Source: Siccirubricoccus phaeus (GTDB lineage: Bacteria; Pseudomonadota; Alphaproteobacteria; Acetobacterales; Acetobacteraceae). From it: a DNA stretch of 64,000 nucleotides. Both the position numbers and the translations under genes were made by a program. The notes beneath the pieces were generated by a model, which did no database searches, was not told the origin of the DNA, and worked only from the letters and a program-made list of their open reading frames with translations. Numbering within the stretch: the first letter of the stretch is position 1; every line of letters begins with the position of its first letter. Positions 1,252 to 62,988 of this stretch are shown here, one piece after another. The DNA lies in the NCBI RefSeq assembly GCF_008360935.1, contig NZ_SRXO01000013.1, positions 62,001 to 126,000 on the forward strand, in the 5' to 3' direction.

Positions 1252-3939
1252 ATGCAGGCTGAAGTCGCCGTCATCATCCCCGCCTACCGGCAGCCGGCGC
1301 TGCTGGCCGAGGCGATGCTGTCCGTCCTCACGCAGGAGGGCGCACCGGAAACCGCCCTGGTGGTGGTGGATGATGGCTGCCCCTTCGCGGCGACGCGCCG
1401 CACCGTGGCGGAGCTGGCGGCGCTGCATCCCGGCCGGGTGCACCTGCTGCGGCAGCGCAACCAGGGGCTCTCCGCCGCGCGCAATGCCGGCATCGAATTC
1501 GCCCTCGCCGCCTTCCCCGACTGCCGCGCCCTCTATTTCCTCGATGCCGACAACCGGCTGCTGCCGCGCTTCCTCGGCCGCGCCATGGCGGCGCTGGCGG
1601 CGGCGGCGCCCGAGGTGGGGTGGATCTACCCGGATATCGACGAATTCGGCGGCCGGGAGAATTGGGGGCTGCCCGGGGAATTCTCCCTGCTCCAGCTCCT
1701 GCTGACCAATTACTGCGAGGCCGGCAGCCTGGTGCGGCAGGCGCTCTTCGCTGCCGGGCTGCGCTTCGACACTGCCATGCGCCAAGGCTTCGAGGATTGG
1801 GATTTTTGGCTCGCCGCCGCGGCGCGGGGCTGGCGCGGGCAGCATCTGCCGGCCTCCGGCTTCCTCTACCGCCGCCGGCCGGAGAGCATGCTGGCGGCCT
1901 CGGAGCGCATCCGCCCGCTGCTGCTGGGCGAGCTGTACCGCAAGCATGCGCCGCTGCTGGCGCCGCGGCGCCTGCTGGCGCTGGAGGCGGCGGAGGCGCC
2001 GCGCCATGCCATCCACCTGCTGGATGCCGGCGTGGTGCGCTGGACCCTGGACCCGGCGGAGAAGGGCGAGGAACTGCCCCCCGCCACCGCCCGCCGCCGC
2101 CTGGCCGCGGCGCTGGAGGCACAAGGCGCCCGCTTCGCCCCGCCCATCGCCGCCTTCCTGGACAGCGCGACCCTGGCCTTGCTGGCACGCTTCGGCGTGC
2201 TGCACCTCGTCTTCTGGTGGGCCGGGCGGCTGCTGGAGAAGACGGAGCATGTCGCCCTGGACATCCTGCCGACCGACCGGCCGGAGATGGCGCTGGAACG
2301 GGCGGGGACGGCGCTTCTGGCGCCCGACCGCGCCGCCGCCCTCTTCCTCCGCGCCGCGGCGCTGGCCCGGCCGGTGCCGGAGCTGCCGCCCGGCACGGCA
2401 CCAGAGGTGGAGAGGTCCGAGGCCGCCCTGCTCCGGCTGCGCCTGCCGCTGGAAGGGGCGGAGGTCCCGGCAAGCCGCGCCCCCTGGCAAGCCGCGGCGC
2501 TGGAGCAATCGGCGATGGCCGCGCTCCGCCATGCCCGCCGCCCGGGAAGCGGCGAATGGAAGCGGGAATACCGCCCGCCGCGCGCCGGCATGGCTGCGGC
2601 CGCCGCCGCCCTGGCGGGGCTCGGCCCTGCCTTGCCTTTGGCTCCGGGCGGGGGGCGGCGCATCGGCTTCCTGCTGCCGCTCTTCTCCTTCGCCGGGCTG
2701 GAGAAGGTGGTGCTGAACCAGGCCATGGTGCTGCGCGCCCGGGGCTGGCGCTGCATCCTCTTCGTGCTCGGTGCCGGGCGGGTGGAGCGCGGGCCGGATT
2801 TCGCCGCCGCCTTCGATTCGGTGGTGCCGCTGGACGGGCTCGGCGAGACCGCCGTCGAGTGGCAGGGCGGCTATTTCGGCGCCGGCTTCTCCCGCTTCGA
2901 CCGGGAAGCCGCCTCGCCCGAGGTGCTCGGGTTGCTGGCCGGGATGGATGTGGTGGTGAACGTGCATTCCCTGGCCGGCCAGGCGCTGATGGCCTCGCTC
3001 CGCCGCCTCGGCACCCGCACCTATGGCGGGCTGCACTTGGTGGAGCGCGGCCCCTGGGGCGAGCCCCAGGGCACGCCGCATATCCAGCTCGCCTATGAGC
3101 ACGCCTATGACGGGGTGCTGGTCATCTCCGAGCAGCTCCGCGACTGGTGCCGGGCGGCCGGCATTCCGGGGGAGAAGCTGCACCTCATCCGCAACGCGCC
3201 GGGCCATCGCACCCCGCCCGCCCGGGTGGCGGCTGCGCTCAGGGCAAGGCGGCTGCGCCCGGCAGGGCCGCTGCGCGTGCTCTATCTCGGAAGGCTGGAT
3301 GCGCAGAAGGGGATCGACCGGCTGGCGGCGATGATCGCCCGGACCCAAGGGGCGGAGCAGAGGGAGGAGATCGCCTGGCGAGTGGTCGGCCGCGCCGTGC
3401 TGGGGGAGGCGGAGCTGCCGCTGCCGGTGCCGGTGGAGCCGCCGGCGCTGTCGGCCGAGGCGCTGGACGCGCTTTACGCCGAGGCGGATGTGCTGCTGCT
3501 GCCCTCCCGCTACGAGGGGGTGCCGCTGGTGGTGCTGGAAGCCCAGCGCATGGGCTGCGTGCCCGTGGCGACCGATGTCGGGGCGGTGGCGGAGGCGATC
3601 GCCGATGGGGTGGATGGGGTGCTGATCCGGCATGACGCGCCGGAGGAGGTGGTGGTGGCCGATGGCCTCGCCGCGTTGCGCGGGCTGGCGGCGGACCGGG
3701 CCAGGCTGCGGACGATGGCGGAAGCGGCGGCGGCGCGCATCGCCGCCCTGGGGTGGGAGGAGGCGATGGCGGAATTCCTCGGGCATCTGGAGGCGGTCTG
3801 CCCAAGGGAGCGGCCAGGGGAACGCCGTGGGGAGCGCCCCGGGGAATCCCCGGCGCCCCCGCCGACCTCCCACCCGGCAGACCACCCCGGGGCGGTCCCC
3901 CTTGGGGCCTGGCCGCCCGCCGCCGGAGCCGCGCCGTGA
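1252..3939 (+). CDS. Two-domain glycosyltransferase: GT2 fused to GT4
   Basis: An 895-residue fusion. Residues 1 to about 230 are a GT2 (GT-A) domain: VAVIIPAYRQ at the start, VVVDDG, and a metal-binding FLDADN with D98 and D100. A linker of roughly 230 residues follows. From about residue 468 a GT-B module begins (RIGFLLPLFSFAGLEKV), with YLGRLDAQKGIDRL near 675 and the EX7E motif EGVPLVVLE at 755-763. Two sugars could therefore be added by one polypeptide. The tail from about 850 is low-complexity, with repeated RPGE units and prolines, and looks like extension by slippage. The stop overlaps a GTG (GTGA) that opens a 28-codon duplicate of the next gene's start. Substrates unknown. Confidence 0.88.
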   Translation: MQAEVAVIIPAYRQPALLAEAMLSVLTQEGAPETALVVVDDGCPFAATRRTVAELAALHPGRVHLLRQRNQGLSAARNAGIEFALAAFPDCRALYFLDADNRLLPRFLGRAMAALAAAAPEVGWIYPDIDEFGGRENWGLPGEFSLLQLLLTNYCEAGSLVRQALFAAGLRFDTAMRQGFEDWDFWLAAAARGWRGQHLPASGFLYRRRPESMLAASERIRPLLLGELYRKHAPLLAPRRLLALEAAEAPRHAIHLLDAGVVRWTLDPAEKGEELPPATARRRLAAALEAQGARFAPPIAAFLDSATLALLARFGVLHLVFWWAGRLLEKTEHVALDILPTDRPEMALERAGTALLAPDRAAALFLRAAALARPVPELPPGTAPEVERSEAALLRLRLPLEGAEVPASRAPWQAAALEQSAMAALRHARRPGSGEWKREYRPPRAGMAAAAAALAGLGPALPLAPGGGRRIGFLLPLFSFAGLEKVVLNQAMVLRARGWRCILFVLGAGRVERGPDFAAAFDSVVPLDGLGETAVEWQGGYFGAGFSRFDREAASPEVLGLLAGMDVVVNVHSLAGQALMASLRRLGTRTYGGLHLVERGPWGEPQGTPHIQLAYEHAYDGVLVISEQLRDWCRAAGIPGEKLHLIRNAPGHRTPPARVAAALRARRLRPAGPLRVLYLGRLDAQKGIDRLAAMIARTQGAEQREEIAWRVVGRAVLGEAELPLPVPVEPPALSAEALDALYAEADVLLLPSRYEGVPLVVLEAQRMGCVPVATDVGAVAEAIADGVDGVLIRHDAPEEVVVADGLAALRGLAADRARLRTMAEAAAARIAALGWEEAMAEFLGHLEAVCPRERPGERRGERPGESPAPPPTSHPADHPGAVPLGAWPPAAGAAP

Positions 3940-32993: not shown

Positions 32994-33776
32994 CTACTCG
33001 CTCGGCGGCACGTCCAGCCGGCAGACGATGCCTTCCAGCCCCGGCACCGCCGGGTAGCGCCGCATCACCTCCGGGTCATGGCCCGGGACGATGTGCTGCG
33101 GGCTGGGGGCCAGCTTGCGCAGCTTGTCGAAGCCCTCCAGCATCTCGCCGATATGGAAGGCGGTGGTGAAGGGTCGGCCGGCTTCCATGTTCTCGTAGAA
33201 ATGCGTGACGTCGGAGGCGAGCACCACCGTGCCGCGCCGGGTCTCCACCGTCACGCATTGCAGGCCGGCGGAGTGGCCCTTCACCAGGTAGGTCCTGATC
33301 CCCGGCGCGATCTCCGCATCCCCGCCCAGCATGTGCACGCGCTTGCCGAAATTCAGCTTCACCATGCCGGCGATGTCGTCCGGCTCGAAGCTGTGGGACA
33401 GCTTCGGGTAGCGCATGTAGCGGCCGCAGGCGTAGTGCATCTCGGATTCCTGCAGGTGGAACTCCGCCTGCGGGAATTTGTCGAAGCTGCCCACATGGTC
33501 GTAGTGCAGATGGGTGAGGATCACATCCTTCACCGTGGCGGGGTCCAGCCCCACCAGCTTCAGGCTCTCCGCCGGGCAGCGCAGCCATTGCCGCTTGCGG
33601 CGCTTGGCCACCGCCTCGGTGAAGCCGGCATCGATGACGAAGCTCCGCTCCTTCCCCACCGCGGCCCAGACGAAATAATCCATCGGCATCGGCGCGTCGT
33701 GCGGATCGCCGCCGATGAAGTGCTCCGTACGCTTCGCGTCGCGATGGGCGTAGCGGATGGCATAGACCTCGTACAT
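32994..33776 (-). CDS. MBL-fold hydrolase, N-acyl homoserine lactonase-like
   Basis: A 260-residue cytoplasmic metallo-beta-lactamase-fold hydrolase. The dimetal motif is ILTHLHYDHVGS; later ligands are in LVKGHSAGLQ, LASDVTHFYEN and VPGHDPEV. Overall layout is that of the AiiA/AttM-type lactonases annotated as N-acyl homoserine lactonase family, which open lactone rings. No LuxI or LuxR homologue is nearby, so a metabolic lactone is as likely a substrate as a quorum signal. Its ATG overlaps the stop of the dehydrogenase (TGATG at 33774-33778). It is the last gene of a three-gene operon. Confidence 0.85.
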   Translation of the reverse strand: MYEVYAIRYAHRDAKRTEHFIGGDPHDAPMPMDYFVWAAVGKERSFVIDAGFTEAVAKRRKRQWLRCPAESLKLVGLDPATVKDVILTHLHYDHVGSFDKFPQAEFHLQESEMHYACGRYMRYPKLSHSFEPDDIAGMVKLNFGKRVHMLGGDAEIAPGIRTYLVKGHSAGLQCVTVETRRGTVVLASDVTHFYENMEAGRPFTTAFHIGEMLEGFDKLRKLAPSPQHIVPGHDPEVMRRYPAVPGLEGIVCRLDVPPSE

Positions 33777-34711
33777 CAGGTCTTGTCCGCGTCCAGCACG
33801 GCCTTCACCGCGGCCTTGTCCACGGCGATCTTCACCCCCGCTCGCTCATTCTGCATCAGCATGGGCACCCGGCTGTCGCGATGGCCCCAGCCGCGGTTCA
33901 TCGCCTCCTGCATCTCCTCCAGCACCAGGTGGGAGAGGCGCATCGGCACGCCATGCTTGCGCCCGAGGTTCAGCGCCAGGGTCACGTCCTTGCAGGCGAG
34001 CTTCAGGGAAAAGGCCGGCGGGTCGTAGCTGTCCACCAGGTACTGGTCGCCGATGCGGTCGAACATCCGCCGGCGGCCGAGCGCGCCCTGGCGGATCGCC
34101 TTCCACAGATGCAGCGGGTCCATCCCCGCCTTCACGCCCATGCTGAACGCTTCGGCGACCACGGTCTGGATGGCGTAGCCGGAGAGGTTGTGCACCAGCT
34201 TGGCGACGGTCGCCGTGCCGATCGGGCCGATATAGGCGGCCTGGTCGCCGAAGCTGTCGAGCACCGGCTTCAGCTTGTCATAGGTCGCCTTGTCGCCGCC
34301 CACCCAGATGGCGAGCTTGCCGCTGGCCGCGCCGGTCGGGCCGCCGGAGACCGGCGCGTCGAAGACCTGCACGCCCTTTTCCGCCAGCGCGTCATGGGCG
34401 CGGCGCATCAGGTCCTGGCTGTTGGTGGAGAGGTCGAAATAGGCGGTGCCGGCGCGGGCGCCGTGGATCAGCCCATCCTCGCCGAAGATCACCCCCTCCA
34501 CCTCCATCGGGCCGGGCAGCGAGGTGAAGATGACGTCGGCGCGCTCCGCCACCTCCTTCGGCGTCGCCGCCCAGTCGGCGCCGGCATCGAGGAAGCGCTG
34601 GGCGTTCTGCCGGGCGATGTCGTTCACCACCAGCTTGTACTTGCCGCGCTGCTGCAGGTTGTTGGCCATGCCGGCACCCATGGTGCCGAGGCCGATGAAC
34701 CCGATGATCAT
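33776..34711 (-). CDS. NAD(P)-dependent 3-hydroxyisobutyrate dehydrogenase-family oxidoreductase
   Basis: A 311-residue beta-hydroxyacid dehydrogenase. The Rossmann motif GLGTMG is at residues 7-12, the substrate loop is [16 protein letters not shown], and the catalytic lysine is in [15 protein letters not shown]. The C-terminal helical half contains the family-typical [11 protein letters not shown]. It would oxidise a 3-hydroxy acid to a semialdehyde or ketone. It starts within the end of the carboxymuconolactone-type gene (34708-34711) and overlaps the lactonase-like gene downstream. Together the three suggest a hydroxy-acid/lactone degradation step. Confidence 0.92.
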
Positions 34712-35040
34712 GCCTTCTTCCCTTCCCCCTCATAGACATCGCTGGCGATATGCGCGGCCGTCATCGCTGCCGGCCAGCCGGCATAGATCGCGAGATGCGT
34801 GACGATTTCGCCGATCTCCTCCCGCGTCACCCCATTGCCGAGGGCGCGGCCGAGATGCGTCGCAAGCTGCTCCTCCCGCCCCAGCGCGATCAGGGCGGCG
34901 ACGGTGATCATGGAGCGGTCACGCTTGGAGAGGCCCGGGCGCTCCCAGATATCGGCATAGGCGAATTCCTCGGTCATCGCGACCAGTTTGGGGAAATTCG
35001 CCTTCAGCCGCTCGCGGCGGGCTGAGGGTGGTGCGGCCAT
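34708..35040 (-). CDS. Carboxymuconolactone decarboxylase family protein
   Basis: A 110-residue AhpD-like helical protein. It keeps the PcaC-type layout: YADIWERPGLSKRDRSMITV, AALIALGREEQLATHLGRA and GVTREEIGEIVTHLAIYAGW. The CxxC of redox-active AhpD is absent, so a decarboxylase or isomerase-like role is favoured over peroxidase. The ATG at 35040 has AGAGAGGAC just upstream; longer in-frame starts lie in spacer. It is the first gene of the three-gene operon with an HIBADH-like dehydrogenase and a lactonase-like hydrolase. Confidence 0.9.
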   Translation of the reverse strand: MAAPPSARRERLKANFPKLVAMTEEFAYADIWERPGLSKRDRSMITVAALIALGREEQLATHLGRALGNGVTREEIGEIVTHLAIYAGWPAAMTAAHIASDVYEGEGKKA

Positions 35041-35105
35041 GTCCTCTCTCTCCGTTTCTCCCGGGCGCGATCCTGCGTCCGGCAGCGGGAGAGGGCAAGG
35101 TGGGC

Positions 35106-35139
35106 AAAACAAAACGGGCCGGCCTTGCGGCCGACCCGT
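35106..35139 (-). terminator. Rho-independent terminator of the KGG gene
   Basis: On the minus strand, ACGGGTCGGCCGC-AA-GGCCGGCCCGT forms a strong stem followed by TTTTGTTTTG, a textbook intrinsic terminator about 50 bp past the KGG gene stop. It is the clearest such signal in the window. Confidence 0.85.
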
Positions 35140-36281: not shown

Positions 36282-37106
36282 CTACCGCGTCCGCCGCCCC
36301 AGCATCGCGCCGCCGATGACGGTCAGCGTCAGCGTCACCGCCAGCAGCAGAAAGGCGAGCGCCGCGCCGAAGGGCCAATTGGTACCCTTGACGAATTGGT
36401 CATAGACCGCCGGCGCCATCATCTTGAATTGCGGCCCGCCGAGCAGGACGGGGGTGGCATAGGCGTTCATGCAGAGGATGAAGACCAGCACGCAGCCGGC
36501 GGCGACGCCCGGGGCGGCCAGCGGCAGCACCACGCGGCGGAAAGCAGTCAGCGGCCCGGCGCCGAGATTGGCCGCGGCTTCCTCCACCTGGCGCGGAATG
36601 CCCTCGATGACCGCTGCCAGCGTCAGGATCATGTAGGGCGCCACCACGGCGAGGATGCCGGCGATGACGGCGCCCCTGGTGTAGAGCAGCGTCAGCGGCT
36701 CGCCACTCAGCCCCAGCCCCTGCAGCGCGGCGTTGATGGCGCCGTCGCGGCCCAGCAGCGCCATCCACCCCGCCGCGCGCACCACATTGCCGACCAGCAG
36801 GGGGAAGAGCGTCAGGATCATCGCCAGGCTCTTCCACCGGCTTTCCATCCGCGCCAGCCAATAGGCGGGGGCGAGGCCGAGCAGCAGGGCGAGGAGCGTA
36901 CAGGAAAGGGCAACGGTCATCGTCGTCGCCATCACCTCCTGGTAATAGGGGTCGGCGACGGCGCGCAGGTAATTGGCGGGCGACAGCGCCTCCACCATGA
37001 GCTGGGTCGGGCTGTACTCGTTCAGGCTGATGCGCAGCAGCAGGGCGAGCGGCGCGACCAGCAGCAGCAGGACCAGCAGGGTGGCGGGGAGGATGAGGGC
37101 CGCCAT
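36282..37106 (-). CDS. ABC transporter permease, PotB-like
   Basis: A 274-residue inner-membrane permease with six hydrophobic segments. The EAA loop that contacts the ATPase reads EEAAANLGAGPLTAFRRVVL. Architecture matches the spermidine/putrescine and iron-type importers (PotB/PotC family). The ATG at 37106 lies 4 bp after the stop of the binding-protein gene. It is the last gene of a seven-gene operon that also encodes a second permease, an ATPase and binding proteins. The substrate is probably a cation or small organic compound, judging only by family. Confidence 0.9.
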   Translation of the reverse strand: MAALILPATLLVLLLLVAPLALLLRISLNEYSPTQLMVEALSPANYLRAVADPYYQEVMATTMTVALSCTLLALLLGLAPAYWLARMESRWKSLAMILTLFPLLVGNVVRAAGWMALLGRDGAINAALQGLGLSGEPLTLLYTRGAVIAGILAVVAPYMILTLAAVIEGIPRQVEEAAANLGAGPLTAFRRVVLPLAAPGVAAGCVLVFILCMNAYATPVLLGGPQFKMMAPAVYDQFVKGTNWPFGAALAFLLLAVTLTLTVIGGAMLGRRTR

Positions 37107-37110
37107 GATC

Positions 37111-38190
37111 TCAGCCCTTGAACTCCTTGGTCCAGAATTCCAGCACCTGCGGCACCATCCGCGCCATGTAGCCGTAATCCGGCGCACGCAGCTTCGCCTG
37201 GTCCTCTGGCGAGAGGTTGATCTCCTTCGCCAGCTCCGGCGGCAGGGGCGCATCCGTCACCGTCGGCACATAGCCCATGCGGTCGGCGAAGGCGGATTGC
37301 GCCCGCACATCCAGCATGGCGTCCATGTAGCGCCAGGCCTGCTCCTTGTTCCGCGCATTCCTCGGCACCGCCATTTCATAGGTGATGGAGGTGGCGCCCT
37401 CGCTCGGCACCACATGCTCCAGCGGGATGCCGGATTTCTTCCACATGAAGCCGCGGGCGAGCCACATCACGGTCAGCCACACCTCCTCCGACTTCAGCGC
37501 CGCCGCCAGCGCCTCATTGGAGGGGTAGACGCGGGCGCCGAGCCGCTTCCAGTCGCGCAGCTTGCCCCAGGCAGGGGCGAAATCGCCGTTGCCGCCGCCG
37601 CCGACGATCGCTGCGGTTTCCACATACTGCGCATAGAGCAGGTCCGAGAGGCCGATGCGGCCCTGGTATTTCGGGTCCCATAGATCGGCATAGCTGCGCG
37701 GCGCGGGGGAGACCTTGTTCGGGTTGTAGAGGATGACGCGCGCCGAATAGATATGCGGCAGGGCGTATGGCTTGCGCAGGGCGGGGATGATGGCGGATTG
37801 GCGGCGCACGCTGTCCGGCACGGGGTCGAACATGCCGTGCTGGGCAAGCTCGTACATGTCCACGTCGGAGAGGGCGGCGACATCCATGCTGCCGCGCCGC
37901 GCTTGGCGTTCCGCCAGCAGCTTGGCCTTGCGCGGCGGGGCGGGCGCCACGTCCTGCACCGGGTCCAGGCCGGCGGGGCGGGCCACCGGCTCGTCCACCG
38001 CCTGGCGCAGGATGTCTCCATAGTCGCCGCCCCAGGTGCCGACCACGAGCTGCGTGCCCTGGGCGCACGGCAGCCGGGGAGCCCCGGCCGTCAGCGCCGC
38101 GACGGCCAGGGCCAGCTTCCGCCTGCCGACCGGTTGCCGGAGGGCGGCAGGGCCTGCAAGCGCCAGGCGGTTGGCCAGAACAAGGCTCAC
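37111..38190 (-). CDS. ABC transporter substrate-binding protein, PotD-like (tandem copy 3)
   Basis: A 359-residue exported binding protein. After a signal-like N-terminus (Ala/Leu-rich, ending PCAQG) comes QLVVGTWGGDYGDILRQAV, the start of a type-2 periplasmic binding fold of the PotD/polyamine or Fe class. The middle has SYADLWDPKYQGRIGLSD and a conserved KSEEVWLTVMWLARGFMWKK. The start is GTG at 38190, forming GTGA with the upstream paralogue's stop. It is clearly a duplicate of the next gene, with many identical blocks, implying ligand broadening or dosage. Confidence 0.9.
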   Translation of the reverse strand: MSLVLANRLALAGPAALRQPVGRRKLALAVAALTAGAPRLPCAQGTQLVVGTWGGDYGDILRQAVDEPVARPAGLDPVQDVAPAPPRKAKLLAERQARRGSMDVAALSDVDMYELAQHGMFDPVPDSVRRQSAIIPALRKPYALPHIYSARVILYNPNKVSPAPRSYADLWDPKYQGRIGLSDLLYAQYVETAAIVGGGGNGDFAPAWGKLRDWKRLGARVYPSNEALAAALKSEEVWLTVMWLARGFMWKKSGIPLEHVVPSEGATSITYEMAVPRNARNKEQAWRYMDAMLDVRAQSAFADRMGYVPTVTDAPLPPELAKEINLSPEDQAKLRAPDYGYMARMVPQVLEFWTKEFKG

Positions 38191-39242
38191 CGCTTGAACT
38201 CCTTGTTCCAGAAATCGACGAGCGCCGCCTGGTTCCTGGCGATGTAGTCGTAATCCGGCGCGCGCAGCCTTGCCTGCTGCTCCGGCGTCAGGCTGATCTG
38301 CCGGGCGAGGTCGGGCGGCAGCACGGCATCCGTCACCGTCGGCGCATAGCCCATGCGGTCGGCGAAGGCGGTCTGCGCCCGCGGATCCAGCGCGGCGTTC
38401 AGATAGGCCATGGCGCCGTCGCGGTTGCGGGCATTCTTCGGCACGGACATCTCGAAGCAGATGCTGGTCGCGCCCTCTGCCGGCACCGCATGCTCCACCG
38501 GGATGCCGGCCTTCTTCCACATGAAGCCGCGGGCCAGCCACATGATGGTCAGCCACACCTCCTCGGATTTCAGCCCGGCCGCCAGCGCCTCGTTCGAGGG
38601 ATAGACCTTGGCGTCCAGGCTGCGCAGCTCCATCAGCTTGCGCTTGCCCGGCTCGTAGTCGCTCTGACTGCCGCCGCCGGCCAGGGCGGCGGATTCGATG
38701 TTCTGCAGGTAGAGCAGATCCACCAGCCCCACCCGGCCGCGATATTTCGGGTCCCACAGATCGGCATAGCCCTGGGGCGGCGCCGAGACCTTCGCCGGGT
38801 TGTAGAGGATGACCTTGGCCGAATAGATATGCGGCACCGAGTAATCCCGCTTCAGCGTCGGAATCGCCCTGGCCAGGTTCGGCACGCCTGCGTCCGTCGC
38901 CGGTTCGAACACCCCCTGCTGCGCCATGGTGTACATGTCGATGTCGGAGAGACAGCAGACATCCATGCTGCCGCGGCGGGATTGCCGCTCGGCGATCAGC
39001 TTCGCCTTGCGCGGATCCTGCGGGCCGACATCCTGCACCACCTCCACCCCCTGCGGGCGGAGCAGCGGGCGGTCGATATGGCCGGCCAGCAGCTCGGCAT
39101 AGTCGCCGCCCCAGGTGCCGACGACCACCTGCCCGGATTGCGCGCGGGCGAGGCCGGGCAGGCCGGCGGTGAGCGCCGCGGCAAGGGTGGAGCGGCGGGT
39201 GAGGCGCATGGCGGCGGGGCGGGTCGGCTCGTCCTGCATCAT
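38187..39242 (-). CDS. ABC transporter substrate-binding protein, PotD-like (tandem copy 2)
   Basis: A 351-residue paralogue of its downstream neighbour. The signal peptide with twin Arg (MRLTRRSTLAAALTAGLPG) ends ARAQSG; QVVVGTWGGDYAELLAGHID and GYADLWDPKYRGRVGLVD follow, and the C-terminus is YDYIARNQAALVDFWNKEFK. The binding cleft residues differ from copy 3 at several places, for example SMDVCCLSDIDMY versus SMDVAALSDVDMY. Start choice: ATG at 39242 overlaps the stop of the deleted copy (ATGA); ATG at 39209 would also encode the full signal peptide. Confidence 0.9.
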   Translation of the reverse strand: MMQDEPTRPAAMRLTRRSTLAAALTAGLPGLARAQSGQVVVGTWGGDYAELLAGHIDRPLLRPQGVEVVQDVGPQDPRKAKLIAERQSRRGSMDVCCLSDIDMYTMAQQGVFEPATDAGVPNLARAIPTLKRDYSVPHIYSAKVILYNPAKVSAPPQGYADLWDPKYRGRVGLVDLLYLQNIESAALAGGGSQSDYEPGKRKLMELRSLDAKVYPSNEALAAGLKSEEVWLTIMWLARGFMWKKAGIPVEHAVPAEGATSICFEMSVPKNARNRDGAMAYLNAALDPRAQTAFADRMGYAPTVTDAVLPPDLARQISLTPEQQARLRAPDYDYIARNQAALVDFWNKEFKR

Positions 39243-39472
39243 CCCTTGAACTCCCGGGTCCAGACATCGAGGGTCGCCGCATTGGTGCGGGCGAGATAGT
39301 CATGTACCGGCTGCAGGCCCCTGGGGCGCAGCAGGGGCTGCTCGATCTCGCCGATCAGCAGCGCCGCGCAGCCGCCGCCCCAGATGCCCACCACCAGCTC
39401 CCCCGTCTGGGCCTGGGCGAGGGCGGGTGCGGCCGAAGGCGCCGGCAGCAGGGTGCGTCGGGCGGGGCTCAT
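39239..39472 (-). pseudogene. Internally deleted substrate-binding protein (tandem copy 1 remnant)
   Basis: A 77-codon open frame consisting of the two ends of the same binding protein. Residues 1-56 match the signal peptide and N-terminus of copies 2 and 3 (GELVVGIWGGGCAALLIG, QPLLRPRGL). Residues 57-77 match their C-terminus (HDYLARTNAATLDVWTREFK). About 260 residues have been lost in one in-frame event, near where copy 2 has residue 69 and residue 331. Both ends keep 4-bp overlaps with flanking genes, so operon reading is preserved. It cannot fold as a binding protein but may still be translated and exported. Confidence 0.88.
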
Positions 39473-40554
39473 GCGGGCGTCTCCGGGGCGGGCAGGTCGC
39501 CGGGCGCGGCGCAGAGCAGCCGGGCGAGCGCCGGATCCCATTCGGCCATCACCCGGTCGCCGACGGCAAGGGCGCGCATGGCGCTGCCTTCCGCCGGCGT
39601 CGGACGGATGGCGAAGAGGCGCGCGCCGGCGAGGTCCAGATGATATTCCGTCTGTGCCCCGAGATAGGTGATGGCCGACACCCGTGCCGCCATGCCGTCC
39701 GCCCCGGCCGGGGTGATGGCGATGGCTTCCGGCCGCAGCGCCAGCATGTTGGCGCCCGGCGGGCCGGACAGGGCGCAAGGCAGCACGGCGCCGGCGGCGG
39801 TGCGGAACAGCCCCTGCCCCTCCACCGCGCCGGGGACGAGGTTGCAGCGGCCGATGAAGCCGGCAACGAAAACATCCGCCGGACGCTCATACAGCTCCTC
39901 CGCGCTGCCCACCTGACGGACGCGGCCGCGGTCCATCACCACCAGCCGGTCGGCCATGGTCAGCGCCTCCTCCTGGTCATGCGTCACGAACAGGGTGGTG
40001 AGGCCGAGGCGCTGCTGCAAAGCGCGGATCTCGACGCGCACTTCGGCGCGCAATTTGGCGTCGAGATTGGAAAGCGGCTCATCCAGCAGGAACACCGCCG
40101 GGTTCACCACCAAAGCGCGCGCCAGCGCCACGCGCTGCTGCTGGCCGCCGGAAAGCTGGCGCGGCAGGCGCTCGGCATAGCCATCGAGGCGCACCAGGCG
40201 CAGCGCCTCCTTCACCCGCGCCTCGCGCTCGGCGCGGTTCACCTTGCGCATCTCCAGGCCGAAAACGACGTTCTGCGCCACGCTCATATGCGGGAAGAGG
40301 GCGTAGGACTGGAACACCATGCCGGTGTCCCGCGCATAGGGCGGCAGGCGCGTGACGTCGCGGCCGGCGATCAGCACGCGTCCCTCGCTGGGCGGAACGA
40401 AGCCGGCGACCATGCGCAAGGTGGTGGTCTTGCCGCAGCCGGAGGGGCCGAGCAGCGCCACCAGCTCCCCCTGCGCCACCTGCAGATCCACGCGCTCCAC
40501 CGCCATGGTGGCGCCGTAGCGGCGGGAGAGGCCGTCAAGGGTCAGCGTGCCCAT
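39469..40554 (-). CDS. ABC transporter ATP-binding protein, PotA-like
   Basis: A 361-residue ATPase energising import. Walker A is GPSGCGKTT (36-44), the Q-loop VFQSYALFP, the signature LSGGQQQR (134-141), Walker B FLLDEP (155-160) and the switch histidine in FVTHDQEE. The C-terminal third is a TOBE-type domain (FIGRCNLVPG, LALRPEAIAI), as in PotA, FbpC and UgpC. It overlaps the deleted binding protein by ATGA, and the second permease ends 3 bp upstream. It should serve both permeases of this operon. Confidence 0.95.
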   Translation of the reverse strand: MGTLTLDGLSRRYGATMAVERVDLQVAQGELVALLGPSGCGKTTTLRMVAGFVPPSEGRVLIAGRDVTRLPPYARDTGMVFQSYALFPHMSVAQNVVFGLEMRKVNRAEREARVKEALRLVRLDGYAERLPRQLSGGQQQRVALARALVVNPAVFLLDEPLSNLDAKLRAEVRVEIRALQQRLGLTTLFVTHDQEEALTMADRLVVMDRGRVRQVGSAEELYERPADVFVAGFIGRCNLVPGAVEGQGLFRTAAGAVLPCALSGPPGANMLALRPEAIAITPAGADGMAARVSAITYLGAQTEYHLDLAGARLFAIRPTPAEGSAMRALAVGDRVMAEWDPALARLLCAAPGDLPAPETPA

Positions 40555-40557
40555 GCG

Positions 40558-41367
40558 TCAGACCACTCGGCTCAGCTTCACGAAGCGGTCGGTGATGAGC
40601 ATCAGCGCGCCGACCAGCGCGATCTGCACCGTGGCAACGGCGGCAAGCGTCGGGTCCACGCGGAACTCCAGGTAATTGAGCATGGCGACCGGCAGGGTGA
40701 CGCGGCCCGGGCCGACCAGCAGCAGGGTGAGCTCGAGATTCTCGAAACTCTGGATGAAGCTGAACAGCGCCGCGGCGACGATGCCGGGGCGCAGCATGGG
40801 CAGGGTGACGCGGCGGAAGACGGTGAAGGGCCGCGCGCCGAGATTGGCCGCCGCCTCCTCCGCCGCCCGGTCCAGCCCGGCGAGCGAGGCGGAGACCAGC
40901 CGCACCGTCCAGGGAATGGTCAGCAGCACATGCGCGGCGACGAGGCCGGCCAGCGTGCCCTTGATGTCGTCATCCACCCAGAATTCGGCGCGGACGTAGA
41001 AGAGGTAGAGGGCGGTGCCCGCCACCACCCCCGGCACCGCCAGCGGCCCCAGCAGCAGCGTGTTCAGCGCCTGCCGCCCGCGCCAGGCGCCGCGGCTGAT
41101 GGCCAGCGCTGCCGCCGTGCCGCAGGGCACGCCGATGACGGTGGCGGCCAGGGCAAGCTGCAGGGAGGTGACGAAGCCCCGGGCGAATTCCCGCTTCTCC
41201 CAGGCATTGGCGTACCAGTCGAAGGTCAGGCCCCGGGGCGGGAAGCTGACGATCTCCTGCGCGAAGACGCTAATGACGACGACGGCAAGCACCGGCGCCA
41301 GGATCAGCCCATAGGCCCCGGCCACCGCCAGGGCGAACAGCATCCGCCGCATCCGCGACCCGCCCAT
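40558..41367 (-). CDS. ABC transporter permease, PotC-like
   Basis: A 269-residue permease with six hydrophobic spans. The N-terminal segment MLFALAVAGAYGLILAPVLA is the first. The cytoplasmic EAA motif is EEAAANLGARPFTVFRRVTL, nearly identical to that of the other permease gene. It pairs with the PotB-like protein as a heterodimeric channel. The two permease genes sit at opposite ends of the transporter cassette, with ATPase and binding proteins between them. It is 49 bp downstream of the amidohydrolase. Confidence 0.92.
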   Translation of the reverse strand: MGGSRMRRMLFALAVAGAYGLILAPVLAVVVISVFAQEIVSFPPRGLTFDWYANAWEKREFARGFVTSLQLALAATVIGVPCGTAAALAISRGAWRGRQALNTLLLGPLAVPGVVAGTALYLFYVRAEFWVDDDIKGTLAGLVAAHVLLTIPWTVRLVSASLAGLDRAAEEAAANLGARPFTVFRRVTLPMLRPGIVAAALFSFIQSFENLELTLLLVGPGRVTLPVAMLNYLEFRVDPTLAAVATVQIALVGALMLITDRFVKLSRVV

Positions 41368-41416: not shown

Positions 41417-42655
41417 TCAACGATTCAGCCGGTCGATCAGCGCCTCGCCGCCCTTCATGACGAAGGGGATGCGTTCCCCCTGGCCGGTCAGCACGCCGAT
41501 ATCGGCGAGCGGGTCGCCCTCCACCAGGATGAGGTCGGCGAGCGCCCCCGGGGCGATGACGCCCAGCTCCCCCTCCTTGCCCAGCAGCGCGGCGTTGATG
41601 CTGGTGGCGCTGCGCAGCACGTCGGCGGCCGGCAGCACCTGGCGGCGGATGGTGAACTCATCCGACTGGCGGCGATGCATCTCCGCCAGCAGGTCGGTGC
41701 CGAAGCCCATGCGGACGCCGGCGCGGGAGAGGATTTCCAGGCTGCCGAGGCCGGCGCCCTTCACCTCTGCCAGCTTCCGCATGCTCTCGGGCGGCAGGCC
41801 GAGCGAATCACCCTCATCCTCCAGCGCCTCGTAAGTAACGAGGGTGGGGACGGCGAAGGCGCCCTTTTCCGCCATGAAGGCGGCGGTCGGCGCGTCGATC
41901 AGGTTGGCATGCTCGATGGAGTGGACGCCGAGGCGAACGGCCCGGTGGATACTCTCCGGCGTATAGGCGTGCGCGAGGACATAGCTGCGCCAGGCGGAAG
42001 CTTCCCAGACGGCGCAGGCGATCTCCTCATCGCTGTATTGCAGCGCGTAGATCGGATCGGAGGGCGAGGCGACGCCGCCGCTCGCCATGATCTTGATGGC
42101 ATGCGCGCCGCGCTTCAGCTCGCCGCGCACCGCCTTGCGCACCTCATCCACGCCGTCGGCGATGACGGCAATGGCCTGGGTCGGCGCGCAGCAGCCGCAG
42201 AATTGCTCCAGGAACACGTTCGGCCGCATGTCGCCATGCCCACCGGTGGGGGAGAGGGCGCGGCCCGGATAGAACAGCCGCGGCGCGGCGATCAGCCCGG
42301 TCTCGACGGCGATGGCCAGCCCCCAATCGGCGCCGCCGGCATCGCGCAGCGTGGTGAAGCCGCGTTGCAGCGACTGCTTCAGCCGCTCCGCCGCGCGCAG
42401 CGCCTGCAGGCTGCGCGGCAGCCTATCCAGCCGGCCGAGATCGGCATCCACGCCATAGGCGTGCACATGCGCGTCGATCAGCCCCGGCATCAGGGTGCGG
42501 CCGCCGCATTCCACCAGCCGCGCCGCGGCGCTGCCGATCGGCCGGTCCGCCACCTCCTTGATGCGCCCGTCCTCCACCAGGACCTCGAGCCCTTCGGCCA
42601 GCGCATCGGCCTTCCCGTCCCAGAGCCGGAGATTGCGGAACAGCGTCGTCGTCAT
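41417..42655 (-). CDS. Amidohydrolase, imidazolonepropionase/Xaa-Pro dipeptidase-like
   Basis: A 412-residue metal-dependent hydrolase. Metal ligands lie in PGLIDAHVHAYG, a carboxylation-type lysine in AHAIKIMASGGV, histidines in VLAHAYTPESIHRA and SIEHANLID, and the terminal aspartate in GFGTDLLAE. The pattern is COG1228, whose members hydrolyse amide or peptide bonds in cyclic compounds, organophosphates or Xaa-Pro dipeptides. Start: ATG at 42655 after AGGAGGCCGGC. It is the first gene of the operon with the ABC importer and so probably acts on the imported compound. No signal peptide, hence cytoplasmic. Confidence 0.9.
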   Translation of the reverse strand: MTTTLFRNLRLWDGKADALAEGLEVLVEDGRIKEVADRPIGSAAARLVECGGRTLMPGLIDAHVHAYGVDADLGRLDRLPRSLQALRAAERLKQSLQRGFTTLRDAGGADWGLAIAVETGLIAAPRLFYPGRALSPTGGHGDMRPNVFLEQFCGCCAPTQAIAVIADGVDEVRKAVRGELKRGAHAIKIMASGGVASPSDPIYALQYSDEEIACAVWEASAWRSYVLAHAYTPESIHRAVRLGVHSIEHANLIDAPTAAFMAEKGAFAVPTLVTYEALEDEGDSLGLPPESMRKLAEVKGAGLGSLEILSRAGVRMGFGTDLLAEMHRRQSDEFTIRRQVLPAADVLRSATSINAALLGKEGELGVIAPGALADLILVEGDPLADIGVLTGQGERIPFVMKGGEALIDRLNR

Positions 42656-42791
42656 GCCGGCCTCCTGGCGTGCTGCGCGGAAAGCATCGCGGATCGCGCC
42701 GGCTTGCGCCAGAGGCTCGGGCAATACATGCTAACTATCTGAAAATAAACATAAATACCTCGACACCTCTACAGGAATCGAAAGTGAAGAG
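42656..42791. promoter_or_regulatory. AT-rich divergent promoter region
   Basis: Between the amidohydrolase/ABC operon and the TonB-dependent receptor lies a 136-bp gap. Its right half (42722-42790, with ACTATCTGAAAATAAACATA) is strikingly AT-rich against the surrounding DNA. Divergent promoters and a regulator site are expected here. No convincing Fur box or -35/-10 pair can be assigned by eye. Confidence 0.6.
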
Positions 42792-61848: not shown

Positions 61849-62988
61849 ATGGGCGCGCTGCGCTTCGAGCTGCGGGACACGCCCCCCGACGCCCCCGCCC
61901 TGCGCGCCGAGTTGCGCGCCTTCCTGGCGGAGCAGGGCCGCCATTGGTCCCCGACCGTCCGCGCCTATTCCTGGATGGGCTTCGACCGGGAGTTCTCGCG
62001 GGAAGTGGGCAAGCGCGGCTGGATCGGCATGACCTGGCCGAAAGCCTATGGCGGCGGCGAGCGCACCGCCATGGACCGCTATGTGGTGCTGGAGGAGATG
62101 CTGGCGGTCGGCGCCCCGGTCGGCGCGCATTGGATCGGGGACCGGCAGAGCGGCCCGCTCATCCTCCGCCTGGGCACCGAGGAGCAGCGGCGGGAATTCC
62201 TGCCGCGCATCATCAGCGGCGAGATGGCCTTCGCGATCGGCCTCTCGGAGCCGGATAGCGGCTCCGACCTTGCCAGCCTGCGCACCCGCGCCACCAAGGT
62301 GGAGGGCGGCTGGCGGATCGAGGGGCGGAAGGTCTGGACCACCAACGCGCATCGCTGCGATTTCATGATCGCCTTGCTGCGCACCAGCCCGGCGCCCGAC
62401 CCCAGGGCGAAGCATCAGGGCCTCAGCCAGTTCCTGGTCGATCTGCGCTCCTCCGGCCTCACCATCCGCCCGATCCTCGACCTGGCGGGGGAGGGGGGGT
62501 TCAACGAGATCACCTTCGACAATGTCTTCGTCCCGGACTCCATGCTCGTCGGCAAGGAGGGCAATGGCTGGGAACAGGCGACGGCAGAACTGGCCTTCGA
62601 GCGGGCGGGGCCGGAGCGCTACCTCTCCTCCCTGCCTTTGCTGACCGCGGCGCTGGACGATCTGCGCGCGGAGCCCGCCGCGGCCGAGACGGTGGGCCGG
62701 TTGCTCGCCCGCGCCGGGACGCTGCGGCAGATGTCGCTCTCCGTCGCCGGCATGCTGCAGGAGGGCAAGACGCCGGCGCGGGAGGCGGCGCTGGTGAAGG
62801 ATGTGGGCAATGACTACGAGCAGGCCCTGCCGGAGATCCTCCGCACCCTGTTCGATGCCGCGCGCACGCCGGCGGAGGTCTGGGAGATGCAGCGGATGAT
62901 GACCATGGTGGCCCGCAGCTATTCGCTGCGCGGCGGCACGCGGGAAATCCTGCGCGGGATCATCGCCCGCCAGCTTGGGCTGCGCTGA
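61849..62988 (+). CDS. Acyl-CoA dehydrogenase (first of a pair)
   Basis: A 379-residue FAD-dependent acyl-CoA dehydrogenase. AIGLSEPDSGSDLASLRTRA forms the flavin loop, GRKVWTTNAHRCDFMI the next strand, and YSLRGGTREILRGIIARQL the C-terminal pattern. It is followed after 3 bp by a shorter acyl-CoA dehydrogenase homologue, an arrangement seen in alpha2beta2 dehydrogenases for CoA esters of sterol side-chains, cyclic or aromatic acids. The ATG follows CAGGAGGAACGCC. Divergent from the molybdoenzyme gene. Confidence 0.93.
   Translation: MGALRFELRDTPPDAPALRAELRAFLAEQGRHWSPTVRAYSWMGFDREFSREVGKRGWIGMTWPKAYGGGERTAMDRYVVLEEMLAVGAPVGAHWIGDRQSGPLILRLGTEEQRREFLPRIISGEMAFAIGLSEPDSGSDLASLRTRATKVEGGWRIEGRKVWTTNAHRCDFMIALLRTSPAPDPRAKHQGLSQFLVDLRSSGLTIRPILDLAGEGGFNEITFDNVFVPDSMLVGKEGNGWEQATAELAFERAGPERYLSSLPLLTAALDDLRAEPAAAETVGRLLARAGTLRQMSLSVAGMLQEGKTPAREAALVKDVGNDYEQALPEILRTLFDAARTPAEVWEMQRMMTMVARSYSLRGGTREILRGIIARQLGLR

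Follow-up and report, generated by a model that had tools for sequence, protein, structure and literature searches.

PotABCD of Escherichia coli is among the nearest known counterparts of the locus treated here, which lies at positions 36282-41367 on the minus strand of a 64,000-nucleotide stretch of Siccirubricoccus phaeus DNA (the window; positions 62,001 to 126,000 of contig NZ_SRXO01000013.1, assembly GCF_008360935.1). The two share the plan of permeases, ATPase and substrate-binding receptor, with receptors of Pfam family PF13416, PotB- and PotC-like permeases and the receptor fold of E. coli PotD (structures 1pot and 8y5h), but the window carries three receptor genes where PotABCD has one. 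Translocators served by several receptors are known from other ABC importer families. For the peptide importer DppBCDF of Pseudomonas aeruginosa, an extract of the published work describes five paralogous receptors, DppA1-A5, with differing substrate preferences, and mentions no decayed copy (PMC4206461). In the polar amino-acid family, HisJ and LAO both use the HisQMP2 permease, according to an extract of a comparison of the Salmonella and E. coli receptors (PMC5708682). The locus resembles both in offering different receptors to one kind of translocator, while differing from DppBCDF in the number of receptors.

Along the minus strand the gene order is permease A, ATPase, receptor copy 1, copy 2, copy 3 and permease B. 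The receptor genes occupy 39239-39472 (copy 1), 38187-39242 (copy 2, 351 residues) and 37111-38190 (copy 3, 359 residues, with a GTG start), which are the open reading frames (ORFs) that an earlier inspection of the letters, here called the sequence-only reading, had delineated. Its 4-bp head-to-tail overlaps are also present: ATGA between the ATPase gene and copy 1 and between copies 1 and 2, and GTGA between copies 2 and 3. Copies 2 and 3 are, as it had held, full-length paralogues (62-64% identity), matching the Pfam family SBP_bac_8 (PF13416) with E-values of 8.5e-23 and 1.3e-23 and with 82 and 84.6 bits against a gathering cut-off of 27; the intact copy 1 of the sister species (G001) reaches 62 bits. 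Copy 1 of the window, with only 77 codons, is a receptor gene remnant. It had been called the first-transcribed copy, which is true among the receptor genes, but the genes for permease A and the ATPase lie upstream. We consider it highly probable that the locus is an old tandem receptor array in which copy 1 decayed after one in-frame deletion of 783 bp, with copies 2 and 3 remaining as receptors.

The age of the array was assessed with a tree of receptor proteins. From the compared loci and the window, 74 proteins were collected; window copy 1 and the proteins of G006 and G261 were too short, leaving 71 proteins over 345 columns in a tree that is rooted at its midpoint only. The reference rows from outside the window number 68 (G006, G261 and copy 1 of G268 were skipped), and alignment A1 combines 55 of these with window copies 2 and 3. 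Each receptor copy forms a clade, starred for its support of 100/100 for copy 1 (7 rows), 100/98 for copy 2 (15 rows) and 100/100 for copy 3 (9 rows). As all three clades hold members of the window's genus (g1), of Belnapia (g61) and of a further genus (g16), the copies must have been distinct before these genera split. Bootstrap values on the branches that link the copy clades are 86-90, and the deeper order is less sure. By this tree the triplication is old, and the receptor gene would have been triplicated before the three genera diverged; a recent triplication is ruled out by the three old and supported clades. The copy 1 proteins of the sister species and of G017, with only 55% and 53% identity to window copy 2, agree with this age. 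This is the outcome of the dating of the duplications that the sequence-only reading had proposed.

The 77-codon remnant was placed by alignment, outside the tree. It is 79% identical to copy 1 of the sister species, and 56% and 48% identical to window copies 2 and 3. It is thus a truncated orthologue of a gene that has 338 codons in the sister species, where all three receptors are full length at the same place, so that the tandem triplication with an internally deleted first copy had been recognised correctly. In the best alignment, 261 codons (783 bp) are missing as a single gap in frame, with the junction at 39299-39302. Residues 1-57 and the last 19-20 have been kept, one junction codon being ambiguous; the in-frame join had been foreseen, while the proposed split into 56 and 21 residues was off by one. 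The gap can be placed in three equally good ways, which corresponds to 2 bp of possible microhomology, and illegitimate recombination between very short homologous stretches probably caused the deletion.

None of the other genomes examined has this deletion and the sister species keeps the segment, hence the deletion is new in the lineage of the window; in this limited sense the earlier suggestion of a recent deletion was right. For copy 1 to remain open, no selection is required: a third of random deletions would be in frame, as 33.3% of 13,915 simulated deletions in copy 1 of the sister species (breakpoints within 60 bases) reach the native stop, and only about 3.3% of random point changes create a stop. 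In the 6.55 Mb genome of the window (G000), the remaining matches to copy 2 are at most 29% identical, and the idea of an intact copy 1 at another site of the genome was rejected on that basis. A conserved stand-alone gene of 77 codons was likewise ruled out by the full-length gene that the sister species has at this position.

Several observations bear on whether the remnant still codes for a working protein. It matches no Pfam or NCBIfam family at E-values up to 0.01, and its AlphaFold2 model, computed from a shallow alignment of 8 rows, has a mean pLDDT of 53.5 and a pTM of 0.22, which is no confident fold. Seven of the retained columns show no variation in any other row that covers them (68 of 68 rows for six columns of the TWGGDY stretch, 69 of 69 for a Trp column), and the remnant has changed three of them. 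Among the 10 columns conserved to at least 95%, it has again changed 3, compared to none in window copies 2 and 3 and in the copy 1 genes of G001, G342 and G291 (Fisher's p = 0.030 against the two window copies and 0.0035 against all five, although the three copy 1 orthologues themselves contribute to the consensus). At a threshold of at least 90% (13 columns), the remnant has 4 changes and copy 1 of the sister species 1. As invariant residues are altered, no Pfam family is matched and no confident fold is obtained, the remnant is most likely what is left of a dead receptor whose function was lost late on the branch leading to the window.

Not all of the evidence points in this direction. At a threshold of at least 80% (21 columns) the contrast weakens, as the remnant has 6 changes while window copies 2 and 3 have 0 and 4, and the copy 1 orthologues have 3 (in the sister species), 1 and 1. 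On the window branch the ratio omega of nonsynonymous to synonymous change is 0.196, which is not significantly above the background of 0.095 (delta lnL 0.94). The neutral value, omega = 1, is weakly rejected (2 delta lnL about 4.4), so that the codons of the remnant do not look neutral; for the same segments, the values on the window branch are 0.077 in copy 2 and 0.038 in copy 3. These estimates come from a purpose-written codon model applied to 70 codons in five genomes, which has little power and was not cross-checked with a standard program. They would agree with a late onset of decay on this branch or with a slight residual constraint. Finally, 16 of 28 fourfold sites in the remnant are identical to the sister species, against 485 of 626 in the other genes of the operon (p = 0.02), an excess of divergence that a very recent deletion fails to explain.

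Copy 1 has also suffered in other genomes. The family search covered 397 genomes drawn from a larger group, with at most five candidates scored per genome, and 72 of them, including that of the window, gave a match at E-values up to 1e-70. We compared 48 stretches, with Belnapia rosea, B. mucosa and metagenome-assembled genomes (MAGs) of Acetobacteraceae among the relatives. As far as the contigs reach, 47 of the 48 show the order permease A, ATPase, receptor or receptors, permease B; contig ends truncate the stretches of G342, G291 and G261, and that of G006 shows no more than an incomplete receptor and permease B. From the three genera 17 genomes were covered (3 from g1, including that of the window, 6 from g16 and 8 from g61), one of which (G002) gave no match at E-values up to 1e-40.

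In the 16 operon-bearing genomes of these genera, the comparison of the locus that had been proposed as a check found copy 1 intact in 6 (G001, G342, G017, G131, G227 and G291) and damaged, reduced to a stub or gone in 10. Among these ten it is frameshifted in one (G268), internally deleted in one (the window), a short stub in two (G185 and G261) and absent in six. The six genomes without copy 1, all from g61, also have no copy 3. In the frameshifted case (L082), copy 1 is put out of frame by a tandem duplication of 4 bp, and its starting frame runs on into copy 2. All six g16 genomes are of the MAG type, and small defects in them could be assembly errors. No relics were seen between the last receptor gene and permease B in 14 loci inspected by eye.

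Tandem paralogues are generally open to mis-assembly, and the short copy 1 could be an artefact in which the assembler collapsed part of an array that still contains an intact copy 1. We regard this as very improbable. Both halves of the remnant resemble copy 1, and neither copy 2 nor copy 3 shares the sequence at the join. Copies 1 and 2 are also too diverged to collapse (copy 1 of the sister species is 55% identical to window copy 2), the changes at invariant residues are private to the remnant and not found in intact copies, and the contig is 187 kb long. Slightly less credible still is a functional secreted mini-protein, such as a regulator of the importer. This would agree with the retained start, with an AxA-like end of the signal peptide and with the weak rejection of neutrality. 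However, three leucines in the leader of the sister gene are Pro or Ser in the remnant, and the alterations in the TWGGDY stretch, the poor model from the 8-row alignment and the full-length gene of the sister species speak against such a product. Decay of an old array member thus continues to be the preferred explanation: copy 1 most likely makes no receptor any more.

The remnant may nevertheless have kept a role in translation. Within its last codons, 5' of the copy 2 start, lies a purine-rich, Shine-Dalgarno-like GGGAG (39251-39255), a putative ribosome-binding stretch for copy 2. With start, stop and this region surviving, termination-reinitiation could carry ribosomes from the ATPase gene through the stub and on to copy 2. 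The 4-bp ATGA and GTGA overlaps at the three receptor junctions resemble known systems of this kind, for which strict coupling at overlaps was measured in 13 of 14 gene pairs according to an extract of that study (PMC6728339). The locus differs in that one of the cistrons predicted to be coupled is most likely a dead gene. Copy 2 also has an internal ATG at 39209, at the position of the leader start in some g61 copies (G321, G146 and G298); it is absent in the sister species. The true start of copy 2 may be this one, and initiation would then not take place at the annotated overlap.

The sequence-only reading had suggested retention of the stub as a translational relay. On this view, selection would keep its frame and the two ATGA overlaps for passage from the ATPase gene to copy 2, the peptide itself being irrelevant. 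The frame has stayed open while invariant residues were changed, and two relatives show short ORFs that bridge the ATPase stop and the copy 2 start with ATGA at both ends, giving three such cases together with the window. One of them has 49 codons (G261), and a short relic resembling the C-terminus of copy 1 can be read there in another frame than that of the bridge. The other has 13 codons (G185) and no recognisable homology to copy 1, so that it is a stub by position only. In a scan of 46 ATPase-receptor junctions, where the window itself was not flagged since its remnant was taken as a receptor, no bridge at the 43 others overlaps both of its neighbours by 4 bp.

Two of these 43, each with one receptor gene seen, do have short bridges with other types of overlap: 10 codons with overlaps of 1 bp and 4 bp in one (L107, genome G355), and 10 codons from a TTG with overlaps of 4 bp and 8 bp in the other (L070, genome G016). 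In addition, a 6-codon ORF starts just after the ATPase stop in L090, and in L064 and L095 short bridges fall within the beginning of an intact receptor gene. As short bridges thus occur where no dead gene is known, the 13-codon case may be background. At a chance of one third per deletion, three open frames out of three have a probability of 0.037, and three out of four, counting the frameshifted G268, of 0.11; moreover, the pattern was spotted post hoc. The operon does without a stub in the six g61 genomes, where copy 2 starts 13-21 bases after the ATPase stop, and both relatives with bridges are metagenome-assembled, the contig of G261 ending inside copy 2. The relay idea is therefore backed by the two mini-ORFs and weakened by the stubless genomes and by the bridges at the two other junctions, and we consider retention by selection rather unlikely. 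More doubtful again is the general version, in which dying array receptors are kept as pure relays and the stubs of 77, 49 and 13 codons in the window, G261 and G185 are three separate cases. A limited search of the open-licence literature found no paper on dead-gene stubs acting as relays.

With copy 1 decaying, copies 2 and 3 would stay as alternative receptors, perhaps with differing ligands, for one translocator. That two diverged full-length receptors adjoin one permease/ATPase set is what the sequence-only reading had described. The AlphaFold2 model of copy 2 (mean pLDDT 91.2, pTM 0.84) has a fold of the PotD/GABA-receptor type, with 4edp, the Agrobacterium GABA receptor Atu4243, opine receptors and PotD among the fold matches. 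For Atu4243 and the opine receptors (4eq7, 5l9s and 6hlz) the TM-scores normalised by the query are 0.76, 0.80 and 0.65, but the identity is only 20-24% and no ligand can be deduced from such a match.

Between copies 2 and 3, 19 columns differ while being fixed within each group. The groups comprise 14 of the 15 copy 2 tree rows and 9 copy 3 rows, and the copy 1 group of the same table 6 of 7 rows, G268 being left out of both the copy 1 and the copy 2 group. Columns 174, 179, 181 and 263, which align with the ligand region of PotD, are among the 19. Because copies 2 and 3 differ at such clade-fixed columns, two receptors on one translocator are plausible, and they may widen the substrate range. 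The differences between the copies also fit three receptors with different ligands, by analogy with DppA1-A5.

PotD residues D168, E171 and D257, which we take to be acidic ligand-contacting residues, correspond to Leu/Ile, Leu/Ala and Phe/Tyr in copies 2 and 3; the D257 column has Ser in copy 1, Phe in copy 2 and Tyr in copy 3. The NCBIfam equivalog cut-off for PotD is 582 bits, while copies 2 and 3 score 67.2 and 59.5. The ATPase comes close to its potA model (346.0 against a cut-off of 355.6 for TIGR01187), with most other Pot scores far below. Thus the non-acidic ligand columns and the Pot scores below cut-off separate the locus from PotABCD proper, and a strict polyamine importer was ruled out on these grounds.

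By its Pfam and NCBIfam matches the locus is nevertheless a predicted ABC importer operon of the PotABCD type, and the importer looks ordinary. Permease A (40558-41367, minus strand) is a PotC-like inner-membrane protein with a BPD_transp_1 domain (PF00528, 8.1e-14), its best NCBIfam match, PotC, being below cut-off; its synteny is kept in the relatives. The ATPase (39469-40554, minus strand) combines ABC_tran (PF00005) with TOBE_2 (PF08402). Permease B (36282-37106, minus strand), also an inner-membrane protein, is PotB-like, with PF00528 (BPD_transp_1) at 2.7e-12 and PotB as its best NCBIfam match, again below cut-off.

The N-terminus of copy 3 is extended by about 20 codons (38190-38116), 5' of its RR-containing leader, and the 8 other copy 3 genes compared lack this extension. 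A source for this extension was sought in the window, where, besides the extension itself, only matches of 10-15 bases were found. An amidohydrolase gene adjoins the operon at 41417-42724 and offers no firm clue to the substrate. Downstream of the operon there is an ORF of 141 residues (35614-35189) with three KGG stress-induced repeats (PF10685), followed by a CMD-family gene (34708-35112) and a 3-hydroxyisobutyrate-dehydrogenase-like gene (33776-34711); in the 48 stretches the latter two occur together only in the sister species. A few irregularities were seen in other loci. In L090 (G092), an insert of about 2.3 kb splits the receptor array after its first gene; it presumably holds an alpha/beta hydrolase-like ORF and, in the opposite orientation, an ORF similar to a BenE-type transporter. 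In L110 (G167), ATPase and receptor are separated by about 1.4 kb of additional sequence. The ATPase match of L100 (G186), at 2811-3909, is broken into two overlapping pieces that lie in different frames, as a frameshift would produce.

Gene decay as such is fairly ordinary and of a kind already known; what is unusual is that the remnant still links the translation signals of its neighbours. That dead-gene stubs may be retained as ribosome bridges is the one aspect that we consider worth testing. The relatives provide a graded series of loss within an overlapping operon, from intact via frameshifted, internally deleted and stub-like to absent, and this series could be used to test whether dead genes stay open because their neighbours need their translation.

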